A stretch of 24,088 bases of DNA from a virus. The position numbers and the translations under genes were made by a program. The notes beneath the pieces are model-generated. The model was not told the origin of the DNA and made no database searches. It saw only the letters and a program-made list of their open reading frames with translations. Below are positions 6,247 to 22,014 of this stretch, one piece after another; position 1 is the stretch's first letter; each line of letters opens with the position of its first letter. The stretch is from IMG/VR virus record IMGVR_UViG_3300017724_001187, positions 1 through 24,088 of that record, one strand, 5' to 3'.

Positions 6247-6669
6247 ATGAAATTTTATATTACTGGTACTAGACGAGGTCTAGGTGAAGCATTAAAACAA
6301 AAATATGATACTGTATCTACATTAGAAGAATGTGATATATTCATTAATTGTAAACATGATGGCTTTGAGCAAGTAGATATGCTGTACAAAGCAGCAGCTC
6401 TTAATAAACGTATCATTAACATAGGATCTCACGCAAGTGATTTTACATATCTACACAAATATGCTGTAGAGAAAAGAGCCTTACGAGAAGCTAATAACCA
6501 GTTGTTCATAGCTGGTAAGAAAACAACGTGTCTGAACTTTGGTTACTTTGATACTGAAAGATCAGCACATAAAGATGTTGAAAAGATGCCTTTAGATTAT
6601 GTGATAGATGTTATCGAATGGGTTCTTATTCAAGAATACAATGTGAAAGAATTAACAGTATGCGCATAG
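6247..6669 (+). CDS. Compact short-chain dehydrogenase/reductase (SDR)-like protein
   Basis: A 140-residue protein, the first of only two plus-strand genes. TGTRRGLG (residues 6-13) is the TGxxxGxG cofactor motif of classical SDRs. IFINC (about 31-35) corresponds to the NAG strand, NIGSHAS (about 58-64) to the catalytic Ser strand, and YAVEK (72-76) to the YxxxK dyad. At 140 residues it is far shorter than the usual ~250, with most peripheral helices trimmed, yet the Ser-Tyr-Lys order is kept, so it may be active on a small substrate. GAGGCGAAG precedes the ATG. It overlaps the following oxygenase gene by 10 bases. I see no strong promoter of its own. Confidence 0.8.
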   Translation: MKFYITGTRRGLGEALKQKYDTVSTLEECDIFINCKHDGFEQVDMLYKAAALNKRIINIGSHASDFTYLHKYAVEKRALREANNQLFIAGKKTTCLNFGYFDTERSAHKDVEKMPLDYVIDVIEWVLIQEYNVKELTVCA

Positions 6670-7097
6670 ACATAGAACATATACTATTAGAACTACAGGG
6701 CTTACCTGAGTATGAAGAACAATTGTCCTTACAGGTTACAAAAGATAATGTTGGTGGGGAAGGTCGTCTGACTAAACTTGTTAATACAGAACAAGATTTT
6801 AATGTATATGCATATGATCTGCCATATACTAATTCTGTATTAGATTCATTAGGAATGTATAGATCAAGGCTTATGAAGTTAGCACCTAAGTCATGCTACA
6901 CATATCACCGTGACCCTACTCAAAGAATGCATATACCATTACTTACTAACGAGAATAACTTTTTTGTTATAGATGATGTTGTAAGCAGGTATCCGGCAGA
7001 TGGTTCTCACTATCTAGTCGACACCAGAAAGAAACATACATTTGTAAATGCTTCTATGGAGTACCGTCTTCATATTGTGGGTTGCGTAGATAGTTAA
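6660..7097 (+). CDS. AspH-like Fe(II)/2-oxoglutarate dioxygenase
   Basis: 145 residues from the ATG at 6660; an earlier in-frame start lies deep inside the SDR gene and is unlikely. The C-terminal half has the metal centre of aspartyl/asparaginyl beta-hydroxylase-like oxygenases: YHRDPTQRMHIPL supplies H83-x-D85 and the RxHIPL strand, KKHTFVNAS supplies H126, and RLHIV supplies R136, the expected 2-oxoglutarate-binding Arg. In this superfamily such enzymes hydroxylate peptides or small molecules using Fe(II), O2 and 2-oxoglutarate. It is paired with the SDR gene. Its 3' end overlaps the convergent minus-strand gene at 7054-7629 by 44 bases. Confidence 0.82.
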   Translation: MRIDIEHILLELQGLPEYEEQLSLQVTKDNVGGEGRLTKLVNTEQDFNVYAYDLPYTNSVLDSLGMYRSRLMKLAPKSCYTYHRDPTQRMHIPLLTNENNFFVIDDVVSRYPADGSHYLVDTRKKHTFVNASMEYRLHIVGCVDS

Positions 7098-7629
7098 TAT
7101 CGCCTTTATAAAATACATACTGTAGATTATTTGCTTTCTTTAAAGGTGGGCTTCCTATCTGTAGTTTATCTGGATACACTTGCCAATCTTCAAATATATC
7201 AGGGCGTGCTCTTTTGAGTTTAGTAAAGAAACCTTTACTGAATTCACGTGTCCAAATTATAAGAGGAGCATCAAGGTTGTCGACACAGTAATTTAGCTCC
7301 TTAAAGTTATCCACCTTCTCAAACATAGACGTACCATCTGTTCTATAATTTTTATAATGGTAATACCTAGACATAACTCTTACAACACCAGGATATATGG
7401 TCTCGCAACCTGAACATAAAACTGGATTGTTTCCATCAAATACAAAGTTAAACATTACCATTCTATCTAAGTTTAAATTTTTATAAGAATAGTTGTCTGA
7501 TAATCTATCAGTGTCTTTCTCTACCTGTAGTTGCAGAAAGGCATCATGGCATTGATCTGGTTCCTCATAAGTAGGCTTTGAATCTTTTATATACGGAACT
7601 ATTCTCACTTCTTTACTCCTAGTATCCAC
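7054..7629 (-). CDS. Unknown protein, last gene of the late oxygenase operon
   Basis: A 191-residue protein, not recognised. It has a mixed alpha/beta pattern: a charged N terminus, a strand-like block MVMFNFVFDGNNPVLCSG, then TIYPGVVRVMSRYYHYKNYR and LIIWTREFSKGFF, ending in QYVFYKGDINYLRNP. The order strand - Pro/Gly turn - Arg-rich segment - helix - YVFYKG is loosely reminiscent of GNAT-type acetyltransferase-like proteins of marine phages, but no acetyl-CoA loop is evident, so I leave the function open. It overlaps the upstream gene by 25 bases, and its end is antisense to the plus-strand oxygenase gene. Confidence 0.75.
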   Translation of the reverse strand: MDTRSKEVRIVPYIKDSKPTYEEPDQCHDAFLQLQVEKDTDRLSDNYSYKNLNLDRMVMFNFVFDGNNPVLCSGCETIYPGVVRVMSRYYHYKNYRTDGTSMFEKVDNFKELNYCVDNLDAPLIIWTREFSKGFFTKLKRARPDIFEDWQVYPDKLQIGSPPLKKANNLQYVFYKGDINYLRNPQYEDGTP

Positions 7630-8087
7630 AGATCGCCGTTACCTTCTACGCTATGATAATACTTTGAGTTGTTTATAAACATAATACTATTATCTTTCAC
7701 AGTAATCTTTTCTAGTTTTTCTTTTGTTTTTATATCATGTAAAAATATATTATGGTACCCAGACAAAGATATACAAAGAGATCCTTTATGTTGAGCTTCA
7801 TGATCTATATGTATTGGACACTTTGGAAACTCTTGGTTGTATCTCCATATACATGTATATCCATGCTCATATATTGTATCTAAGCCTGTAATTATTTTAA
7901 GTTGTTCCTTAACTTCGTTAAGCCCCTCTGCTTTATAAAAGGACCACGTGTAGGAATTTAAAGTTATATGAGATGTTCTATGCCATACTTCTTGATCGTC
8001 TGGCTCACCTTCTAATTTTTTATTGCATATATTAGATATTTTTTCTTTTAAATCATCATTTATAGTATATGATGTTTGCCAGTTCAT
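7605..8087 (-). CDS. 2-oxoglutarate/Fe(II) oxygenase-like protein
   Basis: A 160-residue protein. The second half looks like a double-stranded beta-helix: CPIHIDHEAQHKGSLCISL provides H93-x-D95, then GYHNIFLHD, VKDNSIMFINN and YYHSVEG provides H145. A conserved Arg after the distal His is missing (the tail reads GDLWILGVKK), so 2-oxoglutarate binding is less certain than in its neighbours; a cupin-type iron protein is the alternative. The N-terminal 80 residues contain SYTWSFYKAEGLNEVKEQL and are unassigned. Its ATG shares bases with the upstream stop (ATGA). Confidence 0.7.
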   Translation of the reverse strand: MNWQTSYTINDDLKEKISNICNKKLEGEPDDQEVWHRTSHITLNSYTWSFYKAEGLNEVKEQLKIITGLDTIYEHGYTCIWRYNQEFPKCPIHIDHEAQHKGSLCISLSGYHNIFLHDIKTKEKLEKITVKDNSIMFINNSKYYHSVEGNGDLWILGVKK

Positions 8088-8749
8088 AATATAGACTCAA
8101 CTCTTTCTTTAAACGAATGGAAGTCAATAGGTGGTATATTATTCCATCTTGTCACAAATGCACATCTGGGTGCCTCTGTAATAATTACTCTATGCATTAC
8201 TTCTGTATCAATAAGACAAGGCTTATCAATAATGATCTCACCAATCTTACGATCAGCTAAAAACTTTTCAAACTCTGGTGTGCCTTGACCCATCTGACTC
8301 TGTGCTTTAAACTCATGATAGTAATAATATCCTTGAGCGTTCTTTTCAGGTAGGCATATTTCGTCTTCTAGTGTTTCATAATAATCTAAACGACTTGCTC
8401 CAAGTACAGGATATATGATATTGTACCCTTGACTGTGTTCTCTATTCTGATCTATGTCGGTATGAGGGAATACATCTTTCTCTGTACTATCAGCAGTATT
8501 AAATCCAGTTGATCTAAACTGATAATGTGGATGCACCATTCTGTGCTGAGATAAGATAGGGTCATATATTTCTTCATAACCAGTATCCTTACCAGTCATA
8601 TTATATTCTAACGAATAACTCTCAAATGGTGTCTTACCAAAAACATTAAAGTCCTCCCCAGCCCTTACACCTTTTACTTTTTCATACAGGTCAAGTAATA
8701 ATTCATGCTGAGGATCAACATCTACATACTCTGCAATGCCTGGTATCAT
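8084..8749 (-). CDS. 2-oxoglutarate/Fe(II) oxygenase-like protein
   Basis: A 221-residue protein with a recognisable iron-binding set: VFPHTDIDQNREH gives H96-x-D98, GYNIIYPVLGASRLDYYET is the following strand pair, and IDKPCLIDTEVMHRV supplies H186, followed by PRCAFVTRW with R195 or R201 as the 2-oxoglutarate-binding Arg. The order and roughly 88-residue spacing between the first and last His fit the superfamily. The long insert at about 120-170 (Glu-rich, then YYYYHEF) is unusual and may shape substrate binding. It overlaps both neighbours by four bases (ATGA). The substrate is unknown; soluble, no signal peptide. Confidence 0.75.
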   Translation of the reverse strand: MIPGIAEYVDVDPQHELLLDLYEKVKGVRAGEDFNVFGKTPFESYSLEYNMTGKDTGYEEIYDPILSQHRMVHPHYQFRSTGFNTADSTEKDVFPHTDIDQNREHSQGYNIIYPVLGASRLDYYETLEDEICLPEKNAQGYYYYHEFKAQSQMGQGTPEFEKFLADRKIGEIIIDKPCLIDTEVMHRVIITEAPRCAFVTRWNNIPPIDFHSFKERVESIL

Positions 8750-9150
8750 AATACACCTTCAATAAACGGATCTGCATATTCTTTTACAAATACACCATCC
8801 TCTATAAGCATAGCATATCGTTTACATCTAATACCCATATAATCACCAAAGTCAACATCCTTACCCATATATTTACTGAATACAGCTAATGGATCTGCGA
8901 CTGCATCAATGTGAGGATGACCATATAATACATTCCATGCATGCATGACACTCGGATCATTAACCGCAACAAACACAACCTTAGCATCTAACTTGTCTAA
9001 ATTCTTTGCAAATCCTGGCAGATGTCTTTTAGTACAGCCTGGTGTAAATGCTCCAGGCACACCACATAAAATCACTTTACCCATTGGTAAATTATAAGGT
9101 ACATAATCATCATCTTTAAGTATGTACAAACCTTTAGTTTCTAATCCCAT
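8746..9150 (-). CDS. Peroxiredoxin (Prx5-like)
   Basis: A 134-residue protein. GVPGAFTPGCTKRHLPGF (residues 30-47) is the Prx5-type active site PGAFTPxC with peroxidatic Cys39 and Thr36, and VNDPSVMHAW is the second family block. These enzymes reduce hydroperoxides at the expense of thiols. It is shorter than the usual ~160 residues: the N-terminal strand is trimmed and the C terminus ends soon after VFVKEYADP. I see no resolving Cys at the usual C-terminal place, which suggests a 1-Cys mechanism or an external partner. It lies directly after the FMN reductase gene (10-base overlap) among iron-oxygenase genes, consistent with protecting them from peroxide. Confidence 0.9.
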   Translation of the reverse strand: MGLETKGLYILKDDDYVPYNLPMGKVILCGVPGAFTPGCTKRHLPGFAKNLDKLDAKVVFVAVNDPSVMHAWNVLYGHPHIDAVADPLAVFSKYMGKDVDFGDYMGIRCKRYAMLIEDGVFVKEYADPFIEGVL

Positions 9151-9725
9151 TTTTCATTCCAATCATTATATTTGTTTTTAAAATACTCTTTATTATCTGC
9201 TTTATATAGTAGATAGTTGTTTATCTTATCAGACATCTCAGTAAAGTGTTCTTGGTTATCTGGTATAACATGCTGCCAACCATATGTAGATACATCTGTA
9301 TATACAACATTTGCACCAAGTTTTTTAAATATATCTTTAGTCTGTTCCATATGTCTGCCACCACCTTCTTTTCCACTCGGAGTAAAGGTGAGAAGTATAA
9401 CATGTTTATCAGTCCAAGGGTATCCTTTACCATGATCTAAATTCATATTTGATATTACAACAGCCCAGTCTAATAGGTTCTTTGTACTTGAACTCATCAT
9501 TCCAGTAAACTCTGGTATTGCAAACACAAACTTATCAAACTGATGCATCATAAGAAATAAAGCAGCAACATCTTTAGGTATATCTGCGTCCATACCATTA
9601 ACATTTACTACAGGTATATCATAGTCAGCCAAGCAATCTATTCTATCAAAATCACAGCTGAGTAGTTTTAGCCCTCTGTAGTTGAGACTGTTAGATGCTT
9701 GTGAGGTACTGAGTGCTAATATCAT
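9141..9725 (-). CDS. NAD(P)H-dependent FMN reductase-like flavoprotein
   Basis: A 194-residue protein with a flavodoxin-like fold. STSQASNSLN (residues 6-15) is the FMN phosphate loop, IPVVNVNG is strand 2, and FVFAIPEFTGMMSSSTKNLL with DW is the diagnostic block of the NADPH-dependent FMN reductase family. HVILLTFTPSGKEGGGRHM matches the later strand and loop. The last 25 residues (KEYFKNKYNDWNEKWD) form a charged helix. In this cluster it could supply reduced flavin or electrons, or reduce quinones. It overlaps the TauD-methyltransferase gene by ATGA and the peroxiredoxin gene by 10 bases. Confidence 0.88.
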   Translation of the reverse strand: MILALSTSQASNSLNYRGLKLLSCDFDRIDCLADYDIPVVNVNGMDADIPKDVAALFLMMHQFDKFVFAIPEFTGMMSSSTKNLLDWAVVISNMNLDHGKGYPWTDKHVILLTFTPSGKEGGGRHMEQTKDIFKKLGANVVYTDVSTYGWQHVIPDNQEHFTEMSDKINNYLLYKADNKEYFKNKYNDWNEKWD

Positions 9726-11188
9726 AATGTAACATCCGCAACTAATCTGCGACCAGCAAATATATCAAGGTCGAGTTTATATTCTTTAAATTCTTTATAT
9801 GCATCTTTATATTCTTCCATACTATCTGCAATAGTGTTTAGAATAAGACCAGCTTTCCAGTGTCTTTGCCATGGCATAGGTTCTTGTATGATAGCATTAG
9901 GGCTTGAGTATAATTTATTTGTAATCTTATCAAAGAACTCAAAGTGATCATCTGGTCTGTATAGTAATACACCGCTCCATATTACTTGATCTACATCAAA
10001 GTCAACAAAGAAACAGTCTGGATCATTCCAACTCTCACATCTAAATTCTATATTACTATGATCTTTCCACTTTTCTGTTGCTATATCAATAGGCTCCTTA
10101 GATGTATCAAACCCCATATACTCAAAATCAGTATAACCCTTTGAGTGTAATATATCTAATACTGGTCCATGTCTACAGCCAACATCAACAATACCTTTAC
10201 ACTGTTTTTCTATAATAATATTTGCTTGAGTTTCAAATAGCTTATATGCTTCTGGTGAATCAAGATAAGCCATATCACTAAATTCATAATCTTCCTTCAG
10301 AGGCACTTTCTGACCATTCTCTATTTTTGTTTTAATCTCTGGCCATGGTATCTGCTTTGATGTTTTCTTATAATCAAATGCTGTTCTCCATAGTTGTCTG
10401 TCTTTATTCTTAACAGCAGACCTTCTATGACTTGTAGTGAGCTGATCCATAAAGAGTAGATCGCCTTTTCTAAACACATGGTGACTCATATATTTTGATC
10501 TGGTAATTTTACTATTTAAAATTTCATAGAAGTGTTCAAAGTCCTCTATCTCTACACCATTGTGCCATGCTTTTGTTAAGTAAATAAACATAGGATAAAA
10601 GTATTCACGACCAGACACTGGATGCTTTGCAACTAAAGGTCTACGATCCAACTTTTCTTTGTAGTGTTCTTGACCAATTCTAAAATTTTGTTCACCTTGG
10701 TTTTTATATGCTTTTGAATACTCTCCATCATTTCTCCATATTCTGGCACGTGGTCCAGAATTATCAAGATGAATATCAATAGCTCGATAATACTCTTTTT
10801 CTTTCTCTGGTAGTTCTTCAAACGCTCTACACTGATCTACCAACGACAGTACTGTATCAATACATTCTTCTACGCAATATAATCCTACACAAATTTCATC
10901 AAAGTTATATCTACCAGTACCATTGGCATGCCATTCAAGCTCAGTAGGTCCAAACATGCCTAATGCTTTACCATCGACAACCTTACCTGACACAATACTT
11001 ATCTGAGGGCTATCCTTTGGATTCATAAAATAATCCAATTCTTCAATTTCTCCAAAACGACTACAAGTTTCTACAAGTTGTTGTCTTGTTAAATCTTGAT
11101 CATGTAAAACCACATGACCATTCTCTAAAATCTTTTGAGTTAATTGCTCAAGCTCTACCTGTGTATAATCCATCAATTGTTTAGTCAT
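9722..11188 (-). CDS. Fused TauD-like oxygenase and class I SAM methyltransferase
   Basis: A 488-residue protein, about two domains long. Residues 1-285 are TauD/TfdA-like: NGHVVLHDQDLTRQQL, FMNPKDSPQISIVSG, then LEWHANGTG, where the proximal motif is H87-x-N89 instead of the usual H-x-D/E; MDQLTTSHRRSAV gives H254 and LWRTAFDY gives R268. Residues about 310-488 are a Rossmann methyltransferase: GIVDVGCRHGPVLDIL is SAM motif I, FEYMGFDTSKEPIDIA is motif II, and DFDVDQVIWSGVLLY is motif IV. The two domains in one chain suggest sequential oxidation and methylation. The N-terminal domain is clearly paralogous to the gene at 12074-12871, which also has H-x-N. Coupled to both neighbours by ATGA. 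Confidence 0.88.
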   Translation of the reverse strand: MTKQLMDYTQVELEQLTQKILENGHVVLHDQDLTRQQLVETCSRFGEIEELDYFMNPKDSPQISIVSGKVVDGKALGMFGPTELEWHANGTGRYNFDEICVGLYCVEECIDTVLSLVDQCRAFEELPEKEKEYYRAIDIHLDNSGPRARIWRNDGEYSKAYKNQGEQNFRIGQEHYKEKLDRRPLVAKHPVSGREYFYPMFIYLTKAWHNGVEIEDFEHFYEILNSKITRSKYMSHHVFRKGDLLFMDQLTTSHRRSAVKNKDRQLWRTAFDYKKTSKQIPWPEIKTKIENGQKVPLKEDYEFSDMAYLDSPEAYKLFETQANIIIEKQCKGIVDVGCRHGPVLDILHSKGYTDFEYMGFDTSKEPIDIATEKWKDHSNIEFRCESWNDPDCFFVDFDVDQVIWSGVLLYRPDDHFEFFDKITNKLYSSPNAIIQEPMPWQRHWKAGLILNTIADSMEEYKDAYKEFKEYKLDLDIFAGRRLVADVTL

Positions 11189-12093
11189 AAGTAATCCTCA
11201 AATAAAGGTGTTAAGCATATTCTAGCAGAATCATTCCAACGCATTCGTCTGCGTCTTGTGTAGTATCTATCATGTGTGGTTGCAAGGTAAAAGCAATCAG
11301 ATGGTGTAAAATCGTATTCTTTACAAATGGCAAGTTGCTTATCTTTATATTTTGTATGCATGGAATCTACAGCAAAGTTATTCATTAGAAGCTGCATCGT
11401 TCTTACACCACTATAATTCCAGTTCTCATATTCTTTTAATCTATGTAGAGTAGGGTGTGGTTCTTTAGTATAGACTAATCCTAATCTACTACCAATAAGA
11501 CCAAAACCTTTAGAGAAAGAAAAGAACACTTGCTCAGTTGTCTTAGGTACTTCTATTGTTTTAATAGCAGTGGATGATACATAAGTACAATCTAATATAA
11601 CTGGTGGTGAGTTTTTCCAACTATCAACAGGAGCGTTAAATATATTACCATCTGCCGCAGAAGGTGTTGAGATATATAAAGGCTTATTAGGATCAACTAC
11701 ACCAGGTAGTGCAGCTCTGTGAGTTTCTTTATCCATATACTGCCCTGGCACATCACAAGTAACGGATCCTTTAGAACCTATTATATCTCTATATTCATAT
11801 TCGCCATAACATAATTTCTGCCATGGTCTTTTATCTGTCATTTCCCAATGATGTATGGCATCAGTAACACCGTGAGTATAATAACAATATGGAAAATCTG
11901 ATAGATCAATCATAGGGCTTACCCAATGCCTATGTGTAGCCTCAACGTGATCTAGTTCTTTTGTTGCTTGCCCAGAACCTCTGCTAAAATATGTATCTGC
12001 CGCTGTCTGAGCCAACAGTAATATTTCTACAGACTTAAACCTAGGTACATTTACATATGGAAAGTTTCTTAATTCAGATTTTCGAATAGTCAC
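11185..12093 (-). CDS. PLP-dependent aminotransferase (fold type I)
   Basis: A 302-residue protein. Key residues are visible: YYTHGVTDAIHHW corresponds to the cofactor-phosphate loop, LYISTPSAADGNIF to the Asn-containing strand, VILDCTYVSS to the Asp168/Tyr171 pair that binds the pyridine ring, and VFFSFSKGFGLIGSRLG to the Schiff-base Lys195 (SxSK) with Arg203. RICLTPLF near the C terminus fits the carboxylate-binding Arg. It is shorter than typical (~370-400), mainly at the C-terminal small domain. By family it would transfer an amino group between an amino acid and a keto acid; the substrate is unknown. It lies between two TauD-like genes and overlaps the upstream one by 20 bases. Confidence 0.85.
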   Translation of the reverse strand: MTIRKSELRNFPYVNVPRFKSVEILLLAQTAADTYFSRGSGQATKELDHVEATHRHWVSPMIDLSDFPYCYYTHGVTDAIHHWEMTDKRPWQKLCYGEYEYRDIIGSKGSVTCDVPGQYMDKETHRAALPGVVDPNKPLYISTPSAADGNIFNAPVDSWKNSPPVILDCTYVSSTAIKTIEVPKTTEQVFFSFSKGFGLIGSRLGLVYTKEPHPTLHRLKEYENWNYSGVRTMQLLMNNFAVDSMHTKYKDKQLAICKEYDFTPSDCFYLATTHDRYYTRRRRMRWNDSARICLTPLFEDYL

Positions 12094-12871
12094 CTGCAGC
12101 TCTCCATAACATACGGTCTCCCATCACAGGCGTTCGTCTGTGCAGAGAAGTCAATTGATCCATTAGAAGCATATCACCTTTTTGGAAGATATGATGTGTC
12201 TGATATTTGCTCTGAAAGATAATGGGTTTTAATCTTTCAATAAGCTCATTATGATCTATGCGAGTTTTCCCATGCCATGCTCTACAAATAAAATGGTAGG
12301 GAAAATAAAAATAATACTTATCTGTATGAGGATGTCTACCGACTAGCGGTCGAATAGAACCTTTGTTCTTACTCATAAACTCAAGTTCTGGATCGTTATC
12401 ATCTAACTCATACATTGTATTATTTTTAAATTTAAGCCTAATCACTATATTCTTAAAGTATTCCTGATCCTCTTCAGACAAGTCATAGAAAGGATCTGAG
12501 GTATTACATATAGATAATGTAGTATTAGGATCACCTTCTACACAATAAAGGCTGATTAATATCTTATCTATTTTGTGCCTGCTATTACCATTAGAGTGCC
12601 AGCCTAATTCGCCACCACCGAACATACCAATTTTCTGTCCAGACTCATCTCGTTTATCAGTAACATAAAATAGTTCTGGCACTTCCTTTGAATTCATAAA
12701 CAACTCATGTCGTTCAAGTTCTCCAAAGCCTTTCATATAATCAATGTAAGATTGTTCAGTAAACTCTTGATCGTAGAATATCTTGTGACCCTTTATTTGT
12801 ACTTCACGTGCAATAGGCCAAAGGTGTGACTTGTTATAATACTGTTTACTATCACAAGTCATCTGTACCAT
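12074..12871 (-). CDS. TauD/TfdA-like oxygenase with H-x-N metal motif
   Basis: A 265-residue protein. It aligns by eye along its length with residues 1-275 of the fusion protein at 9722-11188 (FGELERHELFMNSKEVPELF, IGMFGGGELGWHSNG, RPLVGRHP, HHIFQKGDMLLMDQL, LWRAAGDY). The predicted iron ligands are H92, N94 (Asp in canonical TauD) and H244, with R257 for 2-oxoglutarate. The Asn is encoded by AAT and is present in both paralogues, so it is not a one-off read error. It overlaps its neighbours by 20 bases on each side. Likely a small-molecule oxygenase, or an enzyme with altered chemistry because of the Asn. Confidence 0.85.
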   Translation of the reverse strand: MVQMTCDSKQYYNKSHLWPIAREVQIKGHKIFYDQEFTEQSYIDYMKGFGELERHELFMNSKEVPELFYVTDKRDESGQKIGMFGGGELGWHSNGNSRHKIDKILISLYCVEGDPNTTLSICNTSDPFYDLSEEDQEYFKNIVIRLKFKNNTMYELDDNDPELEFMSKNKGSIRPLVGRHPHTDKYYFYFPYHFICRAWHGKTRIDHNELIERLKPIIFQSKYQTHHIFQKGDMLLMDQLTSLHRRTPVMGDRMLWRAAGDYSKI

Positions 12872-13454
12872 CCAAACTAAACATTAAAGCAATTCGTGGT
12901 TTGTCGCTCATGTTAACTACTGCATGGGGATAGCCGATGTTTAAAAAATAGGCAGTTCCACACTTAAGGTTATATGCCTCAACCTTATTGTCTCGTCTAA
13001 ACAGATTAACAGTGTTATTATCACCATAGATGGGTACAATACAACGTACCGCATAGGATACATCATAGTCCACATGGAATGGAATAGTTTTACCTGGTGC
13101 AAGTTTAGTAATACGAATACGAGATGCTGGTGCTTTACACTGTGTAACTATCTTTTCAATATAACTACCAGTATAATCCTCGGTTGCTACATTATATAAA
13201 TGTTCTTCTCTGCGTCTCAAGCGTTCCTTAATAGATGTTGTGTGAGGTAGTATCTCTGATGGTGTTGTAAGATTGATCTGTTCGAAGTTATCGTAAACAT
13301 CTTTTACAAGGTCTTCATGATTCATACAAAGCCCTGGATTTGCTGTTCTTACATCAACAAACTTTTCAGCAAGGGTGTTACAATTATCTCTAAGTAAATC
13401 TAAATCTATATTAACATTTAGTTTCATTATGGATGGTAATTGAGTTTTCTTCAT
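12852..13454 (-). CDS. AspH-like Fe(II)/2-oxoglutarate oxygenase
   Basis: A 200-residue protein. The N-terminal 100 residues are helical and unassigned. The catalytic core follows: RIRITKLAPGKTIPFHVDYD gives H127-x-D129, CIVPIYGDNNTVNLF is the strand pair, CGTAYFLNIGYPHAVVNMSD gives H177, and KPRIALMFSLDG gives R187. The arrangement PGxxIPxHxD ... N.G.xHxVxN ... R is typical of aspartyl/asparaginyl hydroxylase-like oxygenases. The ATG directly abuts the desaturase stop (TAGATG), with AAAGGAAAG upstream. Met10 is a possible later start. The substrate could be a peptide or a free amino acid; soluble. Confidence 0.85.
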   Translation of the reverse strand: MKKTQLPSIMKLNVNIDLDLLRDNCNTLAEKFVDVRTANPGLCMNHEDLVKDVYDNFEQINLTTPSEILPHTTSIKERLRRREEHLYNVATEDYTGSYIEKIVTQCKAPASRIRITKLAPGKTIPFHVDYDVSYAVRCIVPIYGDNNTVNLFRRDNKVEAYNLKCGTAYFLNIGYPHAVVNMSDKPRIALMFSLDGTDDL

Positions 13455-14093
13455 CTACTTTCCTTTAACAAATAATTTTTCAGCAATCCAACCTGCTGTA
13501 TCCCACTTATGCAATCTGACTTGTTTCCAATTAAGATGATGTTGTCTATGATAACCTTCACCTGCAATAAAAAGATTTAGCCATGCGACATCACTACCAC
13601 CTTCTTCATTATGACCAACAGTATTTAATAAACCAAATCCTACTTTTGCAAATACAAATGGTATTGCACAGAAAGCAAGCCAAAAGTATGGGCTTATTAT
13701 AAATGATACTATATTTGTAATGATAAGAATTTTTAACCAGTGGTGGTGACAAAATACCAACATAGGGTTCTTAAACAAGTCACGAGAATATTTTGGAGAT
13801 ATTTTTCTTATATTCCAAGTCGTAAATAAAACTTTCCAGTATCCTACATGCTTCCAAGAATGTGGATCTTTTTCACTATCAGAATGTTTATGATGCATTC
13901 TATGAGAAGCAATCCAACCAATAGGTGTTCTAATACAAGCGACCATTAACATTGAAAGACCTAGGGCTTCAAACCATTTAGGTACCTCAAATTGTTTATG
14001 GCAATAATGTCTATGTAATAGTATTGACGCACCAAAGTGTGATATAACTTGTGACCACAAAAGCCCTAGTACGACAGAAATAAAAAGAATCAT
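13455..14093 (-). CDS. Membrane fatty acid desaturase, first gene of the late oxygenase operon
   Basis: A 212-residue integral membrane di-iron enzyme. The three histidine boxes of acyl-lipid/acyl-CoA desaturases are present: HRHYCH (about residues 27-32), HRMHH (about 64-68) and YHRQHH (about 181-186), with an additional NTVGHNEEGG element. Hydrophobic segments occur at about 1-22, 44-60 and 122-150. At 212 residues it is shorter than the usual ~300, lacking the first membrane segment, but all ligands remain. It would introduce a double bond into a membrane or acyl-carrier-bound fatty acid and needs an electron donor not encoded beside it. It starts 20 bases after the late promoter, with GGAGAGG as ribosome-binding site. 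Confidence 0.9.
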   Translation of the reverse strand: MILFISVVLGLLWSQVISHFGASILLHRHYCHKQFEVPKWFEALGLSMLMVACIRTPIGWIASHRMHHKHSDSEKDPHSWKHVGYWKVLFTTWNIRKISPKYSRDLFKNPMLVFCHHHWLKILIITNIVSFIISPYFWLAFCAIPFVFAKVGFGLLNTVGHNEEGGSDVAWLNLFIAGEGYHRQHHLNWKQVRLHKWDTAGWIAEKLFVKGK

Positions 14094-14112
14094 AATACAC
14101 CTCTCCTATCCC

Positions 14113-14120
14113 TATTTATA
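14113..14120 (-). promoter_or_regulatory. T4-type late promoter TATAAATA for the oxygenase operon
   Basis: An exact TATAAATA on the minus strand, 19 bases before the desaturase ATG. It immediately follows the T-run of the terminator at 14123-14151 with the same 17-bp junction seen at 4247-4264. No other promoter was found down to 7054, so the ten metabolic genes are probably one late transcript. Confidence 0.85.
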
Positions 14121-14122
14121 AT

Positions 14123-14151
14123 AAAAAAAGAGGAGCTAACCATGGCTCCTC
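14123..14151 (-). terminator. Rho-independent terminator after the outer-membrane protein gene
   Basis: On the minus strand GAGGAGC (14145-14151) and GCTCCTC (14130-14136) form a 7-bp stem with an 8-base loop, followed by seven T at 14123-14129. It lies 37 bases beyond the stop at 14189. Confidence 0.92.
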
Positions 14152-14557: not shown

Positions 14558-14628
14558 CTTAATTTCCTTATATTGATGAATAGTTAATGCCACTTTTCTG
14601 TTGCTAAGCAAGTGGCCAGCTCCCTGTG

Positions 14629-14673
14629 TTATGCCGCTAGGGCGTAACCAGATGGTGCGAAATTTTCATTTGC
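14629..14673 (-). other. tmRNA tag reading frame: ANENFAPSGYALAA, stop TAA
   Basis: Fourteen sense codons plus TAA. The tag starts with Ala-Asn as most tmRNA tags do and ends Ala-Leu-Ala-Ala, the C-terminal signal read by ClpXP with SspB-type adaptors. The stretch directly upstream (CUAAAU) is A/U-rich, as expected for resume-codon placement. Confidence 0.93.
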
Positions 14674-14759
14674 ATTTAGTTTAGTTGATCTATACGCGAT
14701 CATCCGGTAAACTCCACTTCACTACGACACCTGTCGATCCTAGTTCAGCCCCATCAAAA

Positions 14760-14849
14760 TCACTCACCAGTACCAGCTAGGTATTTTGGTACCTCTGCTT
14801 CTTTCTTAGCCATCCAATTGTTATACGAATTAATAATCCATTTAATCAT
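14760..14849 (-). CDS. 29-codon ORF inside the tmRNA intervening segment
   Basis: An ATG at 14849 follows an excellent Shine-Dalgarno (AGGAG, 6 bases before the ATG) and reads MIKWIINSYNNWMAKKEAEV..., ending in LAGTGE and TGA at 14760-14762. It fits wholly between the CCA end of the acceptor piece (14870) and the first base of the coding piece (14752), i.e. in the part removed from mature two-piece tmRNA. The first half has Ile and Trp spaced as in an amphipathic helix, followed by a Lys/Glu stretch. No family is recognised. Translation is inferred from the ribosome-binding site and fit only. Confidence 0.5.
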   Translation of the reverse strand: MIKWIINSYNNWMAKKEAEVPKYLAGTGE

Positions 14850-14873
14850 TGTAATCTCCTAAGTGATTTTGGT

Positions 14874-14897
14874 GGAGCTGTGGGGTACTGCCCCCCA
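14874..14897 (-). other. tmRNA T-arm and 3' acceptor strand with atypical T-loop
   Basis: The minus strand reads TGGGG-GGCAGTA-CCCCA-CAGCTCC. The 5-bp stem is perfect and has the correct distance to the acceptor strand, but the 7-base loop GGCAGTA lacks the usual TTCGANT-type T-loop sequence found in tRNA and tmRNA. Confidence 0.7.
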
Positions 14898-14931
14898 GTC
14901 CAGTATGTGTTCACGTTGCTTCATCGTTTAC

Positions 14932-14960
14932 ATTTTATTTAGACCAAAGATCAGTCTAAA
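14932..14960 (-). promoter_or_regulatory. Probable promoter of the tmRNA gene
   Basis: Minus strand: -35-like TTTAGA (14955-14960), 17-bp spacer, -10 TAAAAT (14932-14937), placing the start near 14925, just before the acceptor piece. The region also forms an inverted repeat (TTTAGAC ... GTCTAAA, 14938-14960) and contains TCTAAATA at 14936-14943, one mismatch from the late consensus. Early or late use cannot be decided by eye. Copy 3 of the inverted element lies about 30 bases upstream. Confidence 0.5.
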
Positions 14961-14989
14961 TTAGTTTATGGAGAAAGTTTCTCCAAAAG

Positions 14990-20065: not shown

Positions 20066-20204
20066 CTGGGAATGCCCACAAATAATATTGATGCATTAGA
20101 TTTTCTCCACCAACAGTAATCCGTTGGTGCAGTTCTTTCATAGAGATGCCGTGATATTCACAAGCACCTTCCATGAGACGATCTGCTGCCGACTTAGTTG
20201 ACAT
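20055..20204 (-). CDS. 49-residue protein between the epimerase and cytidylyltransferase genes
   Basis: The ATG at 20204 with TAAGGAGTATTATA upstream reads MSTKSAADRLMEGACEYHGI, then SMKELHQRITVGGENLMHQY and ends LWAFPDGW before TAA at 20055-20057. It overlaps the epimerase stop by 11 bases and the next gene by 11 bases, and fills what would otherwise be the only sizeable gap in the operon. Helical with a Trp-rich tail; no family is recognised. Confidence 0.72.
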   Translation of the reverse strand: MSTKSAADRLMEGACEYHGISMKELHQRITVGGENLMHQYYLWAFPDGW

Positions 20205-21153
20205 TATAATACTCCTTATACCAACTTACAAAGTTTTCTACACCAACATCAATAGGTGTAGTTGGTTTATAACCAAGTGCTTGCAGTTTAGTAGTATCAG
20301 ACCAAGTGGCATGTGTATCTGCAGGGTGCATAGGCACTAGATCACGGATAGCTTCACGACCAAGATTGGTTTCGATATGATCTACAAAATCAACAAGCTT
20401 GACTTGTTCACCATAACCAATATTAAAGATAGTATCATATTTGTCACCATTACGTTTTTGAGTATCTTCAAGAACAATCTTAATGCCTTGTACAATATCA
20501 TCAACATATGTAAAGTCACGGATCATATCACCATAGTTAAATAGTTGAATAGGCTCACCAGCCACAATATTTTTAGTAAAGTCAAATAGTGCCATATCAG
20601 GGCGACCCCATGGACCATAAACAGTAAAGAAGCGAAGACCAACTGTCTTGGTAATTGAACTAGACATAAACTGTGACTCGTTAGTAAACTTAGTAAAGCC
20701 ATATGGGTTTAATTGATAACCACATTTCTCGTCTTCTTTCCATGGTAGTTCATTACCAGCCATAGTGCATGATGTAGAAGCATAAACAACTTGATCAACA
20801 CCAGCGGCGTTACAAGCTTCGATTAGATTTTGAGTACCAGTCACATTATTATCAATGTATGTTTGTGGTTCTTCTAACGAGTGTCGTACACCGGCATATG
20901 CTGCAAGATGCATTACAATATCTGGTTTATGTCGTTTCATAAATTCAGTAAGACCAGTTAAGTCTTTTAGATCAACATACGATACTTCAATACTACGTTC
21001 ACGCAAATTGTTTGCTCGAGCATTTTTTAGACTAACATCATAGTAGTGGTTAAAGTTATCAAAGCCAGACACCGTGTGTCCGTCATCTTGTAGAGATTGT
21101 GCTAGGTGATAACCAATAAACCCAGCGCAACCAGTAATCATTACATGTGCCAT
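20194..21153 (-). CDS. NAD-dependent nucleotide-sugar epimerase (UDP-glucuronate 4-epimerase-like)
   Basis: A 319-residue extended SDR. TGCAGFIGYHLAQSL (residues 7-21) is the GxxGFIG NAD motif, and FDNFNHYYDVSLKNAR is the characteristic block of UDP-glucuronate 4-epimerases. HLAAYAGVRHSLEEP follows, then the catalytic Ser/Thr cluster YASTSC (124-129) and Tyr151-x-x-x-Lys155 (YGFTK), FFTVYGPWGRPDMALF, and RDFTYVDDIV. Most likely it interconverts UDP-glucuronate and UDP-galacturonate. The usual SSS(V)YG motif is STSCTMAG, a mild deviation. It has its own early promoter (21175-21203) overlapping the end of the UDP-sugar dehydrogenase gene, whose product would be its substrate. Confidence 0.92.
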   Translation of the reverse strand: MAHVMITGCAGFIGYHLAQSLQDDGHTVSGFDNFNHYYDVSLKNARANNLRERSIEVSYVDLKDLTGLTEFMKRHKPDIVMHLAAYAGVRHSLEEPQTYIDNNVTGTQNLIEACNAAGVDQVVYASTSCTMAGNELPWKEDEKCGYQLNPYGFTKFTNESQFMSSSITKTVGLRFFTVYGPWGRPDMALFDFTKNIVAGEPIQLFNYGDMIRDFTYVDDIVQGIKIVLEDTQKRNGDKYDTIFNIGYGEQVKLVDFVDHIETNLGREAIRDLVPMHPADTHATWSDTTKLQALGYKPTTPIDVGVENFVSWYKEYYNVN

Positions 21154-21174
21154 TTAATTCTCCTTATATATTGT

Positions 21175-21203
21175 ATTATAACACACCAATTAAGATATGT
21201 AAA
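21175..21203 (-). promoter_or_regulatory. Sigma70-like early promoter for the epimerase
   Basis: Minus strand: -35 TTTACA (21198-21203), 17-bp spacer ending TGTGT, -10 TATAAT (21175-21180). The -35 box lies inside the last codons of the upstream dehydrogenase gene. The leader to the ATG at 21153 carries AAGGAG. Confidence 0.85.
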
Positions 21204-22014
21204 CAACATTCTGCTCTTTTTCTCTGGCGTCTAATTCATATTGAGAACGCACACTATTGTTCTCTGCAATAACTAACTTTAGAATAGAGAGGTGATCTGC
21301 TCCAGCAAATGAAGATAAAGCATTTGTGTCTTTGGGGAAACAAGCACCACCAAAACCACTGCGACCATCAGGACCAGGAACCTGAGTATGACTGTGACTA
21401 ATCCTGGGATCAGTGCCAACAGCAGTAATAATATTATCGTAATCGGCTCCATGACTATCAATTAACTCCTTATATTGATTGAACCACATAACTTTAGTGG
21501 CAAGAAAACTATTAATGCCATACTTTACAAAAGCGGCATCTTGTGCAGCCATCTTATATACAGGGGCTGGCTTACAACGACTGAACTTATTATATAAATT
21601 CTCAAGGGTGTCTACAGACTTACCTTCACCACCAAATATATGCATAGGTGGGTTTACAAAATCTTCAAGAGCATTACGCTCAGTTAGAAATTCTGGATTG
21701 TAAATCACTCGGCTATTCTTAGTGCTTAGTTCTTTTACAATACTAGGGATAACTGTTGACTTAATTACAATCAGACCAGTAGTTTTCTCAATAAGTTTGT
21801 TTGTGACATCAACAACAATGGAGGCATCTATCTGACCATCATCACCAAACGGTGTGGGAACACAGACAAATGACACATCGACATCAGTCATATCGTCAAC
21901 AGAATTATTATAGAGAAATGGATCAATCAACTGGATCTTATTCTTTTTAGTATTAAAGCCATATTCGCATGCCTTACCGACATAACCATGACCAACGATA
22001 GCAATCTTTTTCAT
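21190..22014 (-). CDS. Compact UDP-glucose/GDP-mannose dehydrogenase-like protein
   Basis: A 274-residue protein, against about 430 for the usual family. IAIVGHGYVGKACEYGF is the NAD-binding motif, and VSFVCVPTPFGDDGQIDAS, IVIKSTVIPS and VIYNPEFLTE are the N-terminal domain blocks. AAFVKYGINSFLATKVMWFN is the central helix with the catalytic Lys/Asn, and GFGGACFPKDTNAL carries Cys225, the catalytic thiol. The chain stops soon after, so the separate C-terminal nucleotide-sugar-binding domain is absent although all catalytic residues remain. It probably oxidises a UDP-sugar to a uronic acid, feeding the epimerase. AGAAAGG precedes the ATG. Confidence 0.88.
   Translation of the reverse strand: MKKIAIVGHGYVGKACEYGFNTKKNKIQLIDPFLYNNSVDDMTDVDVSFVCVPTPFGDDGQIDASIVVDVTNKLIEKTTGLIVIKSTVIPSIVKELSTKNSRVIYNPEFLTERNALEDFVNPPMHIFGGEGKSVDTLENLYNKFSRCKPAPVYKMAAQDAAFVKYGINSFLATKVMWFNQYKELIDSHGADYDNIITAVGTDPRISHSHTQVPGPDGRSGFGGACFPKDTNALSSFAGADHLSILKLVIAENNSVRSQYELDAREKEQNVVYIS

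Follow-up and report, generated by a model that had tools for sequence, protein, structure and literature searches.

A conserved, late-switched set of enzyme genes in marine phages that looks like one pathway

A viral contig of the IMG/VR collection (record IMGVR_UViG_3300017724_001187, positions 1 to 24,088, hereafter the window) carries on its minus strand a run of metabolic genes at 7054-14093, and the question raised by this locus is whether these genes act independently or as one pathway, and what such a pathway might make. A first-pass annotation of the sequence had described a ten-gene operon. All ten open reading frames (ORFs) are indeed present, with neighbours that abut or overlap by a few bases, and an operon-like cassette recurs in relatives. 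The unit reaches out to position 6247 through two plus-strand genes, X5 and ASPH2, which are convergent with U10 and co-occur with the cassette across relatives. The window comes from a marine T4-like virus whose late-switched enzyme genes, about a dozen in all, are conserved as a set; many encode oxygen-using enzymes that depend on iron, and together they look like one pathway that makes or decorates a small molecule. The reading that we favour, with a probability of roughly 0.58, is that the cassette encodes a single late-expressed oxidative tailoring pathway, which acts on a small acyl- or amino-type metabolite and uses exchangeable oxygenases. Gene names are those of Table 1.

A search with the fused TauD-methyltransferase protein (TAUD-MT) gave 31 viral loci, and a search with an alignment of AT gave 66. 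At these 66 loci, where each ORF was counted under its best label and many contigs end early, we found TAUD in 65, DES and ASPH in 59 each, the methyltransferase (MT) in 52, OG8 in 46, FMNR in 43, PRX in 37, ASPH2 in 27, U10 and X5 in 24 each, an N-acetyltransferase (NAT) in 21 and OG9 in 10. When OG8 was used as the anchor, each of the 56 loci obtained also had genes of two or more further cassette families (exactly two in one locus, three in another). The neighbourhood that the first-pass annotation had proposed to look for in marine phage contigs therefore recurs, and the scattering of the genes in relatives, which it had named as a refutation, was not seen. Both independent anchors show co-occurrence, which favours one pathway. 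Gene order and flanks vary between loci, while the genes remain together. IMG/VR contigs by the dozen hold the cassette, as does the cultured Pelagibacter phage Mosig. Among 50,697 phage records TAUD-MT, AT, OG8, DES and TAUD1 each matched Mosig only, and a search of plasmids with AT gave no match. A T4-type Gp23 capsid gene was found in 5 of the 12 longer contigs tested, each >120 kb, and is broken by stops in one of the five; one 124-kb contig is without it. With respect to the nearest distinct relative, the dN/dS ratio was 0.02-0.20 for 10 of 12 genes. The value for ASPH was 0.55, but with a dS of only 0.02, and that for TAUD-MT (0.31) was set aside, the N-terminal domain of the relative (L095) being different. 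The cassette genes are thus shown to be under purifying selection, with active sites kept.

Several of the genes are also fused: TauD with MT in the window, L004 and L005; FMNR with MT in L086 and L092; MT with U10 in L083-L085 and L096; an HxD..H domain with MT in L029, L031 and L033; and X5 with ASPH2 in at least seven loci. Where MT stands alone and has a readable upstream neighbour on the same strand, the 30 distinct genes follow, without exception, a gene of 2-oxoglutarate (2OG) type: TauD in 19 cases, OG8 in five, a P4H-like (2OG-FeII_Oxy_3-like) gene in five, and in one (L072) another HxD..H protein, which has no Pfam match. The P4H-like call was made by Pfam in L043 (6.9e-14) and by similarity in the other four. 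Since genes of several 2OG-type families fill this place, the oxygenase adjoining MT is exchangeable, and because it varies in family, different phages probably make different versions of the product. U10 and NAT never occur together (0/66 and 0/56 loci), as if the pathway needs one GNAT-type enzyme, either of the two; 17 and 6 loci have neither, seemingly mostly from incomplete sequence. These observations bear on the idea that the genes are independent auxiliary genes, acting for instance through a drawdown of 2OG that alters nitrogen status, as has been proposed for cyanophages in the available part of PMC3037559. Many cassette enzymes are of 2OG type, and marine T4-like phages have several such enzymes elsewhere, according to the same partial source. 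However, MT, GNAT, SDR and DES consume no 2OG, and one pathway is indicated by the way the genes keep together, by their fusions and by the constant place of an oxygenase ahead of MT, so that independent auxiliary genes appear improbable.

Table 1. Features of the enzyme gene set and its control region in the window.
Feature	Position	Strand	Basis
Intrinsic terminator of upstream gene	14130..14151	-	7-bp stem, 8-nt loop, T-run
T4-type late promoter TATAAATA (supported)	14113..14120	-	27 nt ahead of first ATG
DES, acyl-CoA-desaturase-like di-iron membrane enzyme, 212 aa	13455..14093	-	PF00487, SCD structures
ASPH, aspartyl/asparaginyl hydroxylase-like oxygenase, HxD..H	12852..13454	-	PF05118
TAUD1, TauD-family protein, HxN iron motif H92/N94/H244	12074..12871	-	PF02668
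AT, small fold-type I PLP enzyme, aminotransferase-like	11185..12093	-	AlphaFold2 (AF2) + Foldseek
TAUD2-MT, HxN TauD domain fused to class I methyltransferase, 488 aa	9722..11188	-	Pfam
FMNR, NADPH-dependent FMN reductase-like	9141..9725	-	PF03358
PRX, peroxiredoxin	8746..9150	-	Redoxin; phrog_2281
OG8, distant AspH-like oxygenase (predicted), HxD..H..R	8084..8749	-	hhalign to ASPH
OG9, HxD..H protein, possible oxygenase or cupin	7605..8087	-	conserved residues
U10, GNAT-fold protein	7054..7608	-	AF2 + Foldseek
ASPH2, second Asp/Asn hydroxylase-like protein	6618..7097	+	PF05118 + co-occurrence
X5, miniature SDR-like protein, named by motif only	6247..6669	+	conserved residues; ASPH2 fusions

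The late timing had been read from a single exact promoter at the head of the cassette. The motif TATAAATA occurs three times in the window against 3.74 expected by chance, so that the lone match at the cassette head proves nothing. Conservation in relatives is more informative. We took the cassette heads with at least 15 nt of upstream space and grouped their upstream regions into 12 clusters; an exact TATAAATA lies 16-39 nt ahead of the head in 8 of these, as compared to a mean of 0.26 and a maximum of 3 clusters in 500 shuffles. A stricter count gives 7/11, since the L034 group and L097 share a promoter stretch. The motif was found in none of 14 cases where the cassette sits inside a longer gene run, and Mosig has two copies ahead of the head gene. 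It is this recurrence ahead of the head gene in relatives that supports a T4-type late promoter, and with it a predicted late start of transcription. In the window the motif comes directly after the intrinsic terminator of the upstream gene, and the 47-nt stretch of the terminator region folds with -14.5 kcal/mol (z -3.73).

The families found support the earlier view that this is an enzyme set of small-molecule type. DES matched PF00487 (1.8e-11) and the SCD structures 4zyo (E 1.6e-5) and 4ymk (E 2.8e-5). Nine His and one Asn are invariant in 14/14 aligned sequences, which is the layout of the di-iron site of SCD-type acyl-CoA desaturases and agrees with the one di-iron enzyme predicted at first pass. 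In ornithine-lipid pathways, whose Ols enzymes offer a comparison, members of the AspH and GNAT families occur, and with an SCD-like DES at hand it is conceivable that the enzymes hydroxylate, desaturate, methylate or acylate a host aminolipid of the envelope. We consider this quite unlikely: apart from DES, Pfam and NCBIfam gave no acyltransferase or lipid family match, and the PLP enzyme, FMN reductase and TauD would have no clear place. ASPH matched PF05118 (7.9e-7) and the beta-hydroxylase structure 7v4f (E 3.7e-7), and residues H127, D129 and H177 are kept in 17/17 sequences; its profile was built without three divergent rows of the alignment (A8). ASPH2 matched the same family (2.1e-7), TAUD1 matched PF02668 (7.3e-18), FMNR PF03358 (7.1e-16) and PRX both Redoxin (2.7e-16) and phrog_2281 (5.8e-18).

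TAUD-MT matched PF02668 (7.9e-23) and Methyltransf_25 (3.2e-6). Its MT half also shows a weak match to the tRNA methyltransferase family phrog_4752 (2.1e-5), which would suit a hypermodification of nucleic acids. Otherwise the ten proteins have no match to Tet/JBP, thymidylate-synthase or nucleic-acid-binding families; with no fitting family among them, this explanation was rejected as very improbable.

For AT the Pfam score was only 0.055, below the cut-off. The structure model (pLDDT 89.9, pTM 0.90) has as its best Foldseek match the aminotransferase 2o1b (E 1.4e-10), with HisC-like enzymes also matching, and the pyridoxal phosphate (PLP) lysine K195 is kept in 33/34 sequences. The model makes AT a small fold-type I PLP enzyme, aminotransferase-like as called at first pass, which may carry out transamination. 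The gene left as unknown in the first-pass annotation, U10, does exist and has no Pfam match, but it now has a predicted identity. Its model (pLDDT 85.5) matched 5wjd (E 6.7e-5, TM ~0.5), which gives it a GNAT fold and, by prediction, acyl-CoA binding. The ORF was listed to 7629, and GTG at 7608 is the likelier start judged against relatives. The idea that U10 is a distant NAT was dropped after two negative profile comparisons.

The best fold match of U10, Naa80, is a protein acetyltransferase, and Asp/Asn hydroxylases, P4H-like enzymes and GNATs frequently have protein substrates; moreover, the Mosig cassette adjoins tail-fibre genes, and in one bacterial relative of NAT a SET domain is attached. 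The target of the AspH-like, P4H-like, MT and GNAT enzymes might then be a protein of the virion or envelope, modified at a late stage of infection. On the other hand, a protein substrate would be a poor fit for a membrane desaturase of SCD type and for the PLP enzyme, the SDR and TauD, and the cassette in the window is not next to tail genes, which makes this explanation unlikely. The first-pass suggestion of a role for the product during assembly or lysis, or in altering some part of the virion or envelope, found no backing; nothing found names a substrate.

Two HxD..H proteins complete the set. The Pfam and solved-structure searches gave nothing for OG8 of the window, and among its alignment members Pfam gave a single DUF match, below cut-off. 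Its profile aligned with that of ASPH (hhalign probability 82, E 1.1e-5), and H96, D98, H186 and R195 are kept in 24/24 sequences, which suggests a distant AspH-like 2OG oxygenase. OG9 keeps H93, D95 and H145 in 10/10; Pfam gave no match, the solved-structure search gave only weak, unrelated rows, and profile comparisons with OG8 and ASPH2 were not significant, so that a relationship to either was rejected. X5 keeps the motif residues G7, G13, Y72 and K76 in 9/9 sequences, with no Pfam match above cut-off. The NCBIfam scan gave only matches far below cut-off (DesA, PtlD, taurine dioxygenase, ScoE and trans-aconitate methyltransferase).

Relatives of the cassette were also found outside viruses. 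A genome scan gave L036, in a metagenome-assembled genome (MAG) of Bacteriovoracaceae (within Bdellovibrionota in the NCBI taxonomy), L037, a 349-kb contig with an EF-Tu gene recognised by reading, and L038, in a MAG of Bdellovibrionia. L036/L116 hold AT, DES, ASPH, TAUD, OG8, OG9, MT, FMNR and U10, L037 holds AT, DES, ASPH, TAUD and NAT, and L038 has TAUD, DES and AspH-like genes, with AT not found in its genome. AT relatives occur in 13 of 368 Bdellovibrionota genomes at E 1e-8. These MAG clusters share the HxN TauD, AT, DES and ASPH with the phage cassette, but they are chromosomal, larger and include radical SAM and other genes. The presence of the same genes on Bdellovibrionota chromosomes suggests that a biosynthetic module passes between bacteria and phages. 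Several AT relatives of this phylum (L118-L129) adjoin radical SAM, SPASM or GNAT genes, and radical SAM genes also precede the viral cassette in L083 (6001-7131, Pfam run) and L086 (5689-6801), both products resembling one of the radical SAM proteins found next to the bacterial AT relatives. The SET fusion of the NAT relative lies at 12380-13384 (+) of L037 (PF00856, 2.2e-9). An 8585-base cassette-bearing contig (L035) in a Candidatus Paceibacter MAG is phage-like and may be a binning error.

The first-pass count of at least five Fe(II)/2OG sites should be qualified: both TauD domains have HxN at the site, and the calls for OG8 and OG9 come from sequence comparison. TAUD1 and TAUD2 satisfy the family profile but not the usual HxD/E...H triad, with Asn in place of the carboxylate ligand. 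HxN was found at the iron site of 98 of the 99 distinct cassette TauD-domain ORFs, the remaining one being without the segment. Seven of the 99 are from L036-L038, a biased sample because these loci were found partly by a pattern containing the HxN motif; the viral ones were found via other peptides or AT. A single apparent HxE case turned out to be a methyltransferase, and the recount used TauD domains only. As a control, the 29 PF02668 rows from 97 genomes of Bdellovibrionota gave 20 HxD/E (one below the family cut-off), 5 HxN and 4 unreadable. All five HxN rows are cassette relatives, so the readable non-cassette TauD proteins of the phylum have HxD/E in 20/20. In 30/30 aligned cassette proteins both His, D233, D238, R253 and R257 are invariant, the latter two including the 2OG-binding Arg past the distal His, and position 88 is Glu in 29. 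The strict conservation of the remaining site residues argues against decay.

ScoE (3.3e-6) and TauD (3e-4) match the cassette TauD proteins at the family level; those dioxygenases have HxD at the iron site, and WHAD of ScoE aligns with WH(S/A)N of the cassette proteins. In the available part of PMC10947486, halogenases are described with HxA/G at the iron site and AspH with two His, and according to that of PMC2767507 removal of the Asp abolished the activity of P4H and TauD. On this basis HxN could mean a different chemistry, a weak ligand or a lost oxygenase function. A halogenase of Fe(II)/2OG type was considered and rejected, as the position expected to be Ala or Gly is Asn. We found no report of an HxN triad in the literature searched, which was available in part. 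Should the HxN clade prove active, a large enzyme family would gain a naturally occurring variant of its iron site.

In the favoured single tailoring pathway, an acyl- or amino-acid-type scaffold is guessed because DES, GNAT and AT occur together. AT would set or remove an amino group, and a GNAT-type enzyme, U10 here and NAT in other phages, would acylate it. DES and the 2OG-type enzymes would desaturate or hydroxylate the scaffold, MT would act next to the oxygenase encoded before it, and X5 may carry out a redox step. FMN reductase and peroxiredoxin would hold iron reduced and clear peroxide, and the product, judging by the late timing, would act toward the end of infection. Several points weigh against this reading. 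No evidence found names a substrate or product; the ten-gene set is not fixed (see the AT-locus counts for PRX, U10 and OG9); and the loci of the separate scans overlap, so that their counts are not independent. In addition, AT could be a decarboxylase or lyase, given that threonine-phosphate decarboxylase, alliinase and ACC synthase are among its best 50 fold matches; oxygenase chemistry may be lost in the TauD proteins; and OG9, a possible oxygenase by its conserved HxD...H, may not be one. A bolder version is doubtful in our opinion: a complete, diversifying pathway of natural-product type, shared with Bdellovibrionota, in which the HxN clade would perform non-hydroxylation chemistry (e.g., transfer of halide or another anion, or C-N chemistry) and the phage would specify a late compound.

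To our knowledge, no phage pathway with such a composition has been described. Our literature searches, which covered few subscription papers, likewise gave no such gene set, in agreement with the first-pass statement, and none is described in the available parts of PMC9004378, PMC7029224, PMC9599517, PMC3037559 and PMC7892664. The pelagiphage 2OG oxygenase and ferrochelatase groups of PMC9599517 are alike in that several 2OG oxygenases lie close together in SAR11 phages, but the accessible text is without the terms desaturase, peroxiredoxin, aminotransferase and taurine. For the Pelagimyophage group PMP-D, the available text of PMC7029224 names a 2OGFeDO protein as well as a stearoyl-CoA desaturase, but describes no pathway or cassette.

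The closest known case is Mosig EXVC030M (MT647606.1), in which Mosig_00072-00081 are the same cassette, with DES, AT, FMNR, PRX, OG8, TauD, MT, an N-acetyltransferase and an AspH-like gene. It differs in that TauD and MT are separate, TauD is single and NAT takes the place of U10. The genes are annotated there one by one, with no pathway described. Since the cassette is common among marine contigs and a cultured SAR11 phage carries it, its product can be sought directly. Beside the Mosig cassette, at 60990-71305 (20266-30581 of L003), lie plus-strand genes annotated as nitroreductases, MoaA-like, aminotransferase, carbamoyltransferase and methyltransferase. The host of the window virus is probably SAR11, because Mosig carries the cassette and the transfer-messenger RNA (tmRNA) of the window is of alphaproteobacterial type. 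This permuted tmRNA gene, at 14586-14979 (-), lies a short way upstream of the cassette and scored 94.5 bits with Rfam alpha_tmRNA and 104.6 bits with tmRNA_permuted. Farther along the window, at 20194-22014 (-), genes for a nucleotide-sugar epimerase-like and a UDP-glucose dehydrogenase-like protein (phrog_540 and phrog_9148) stand side by side.

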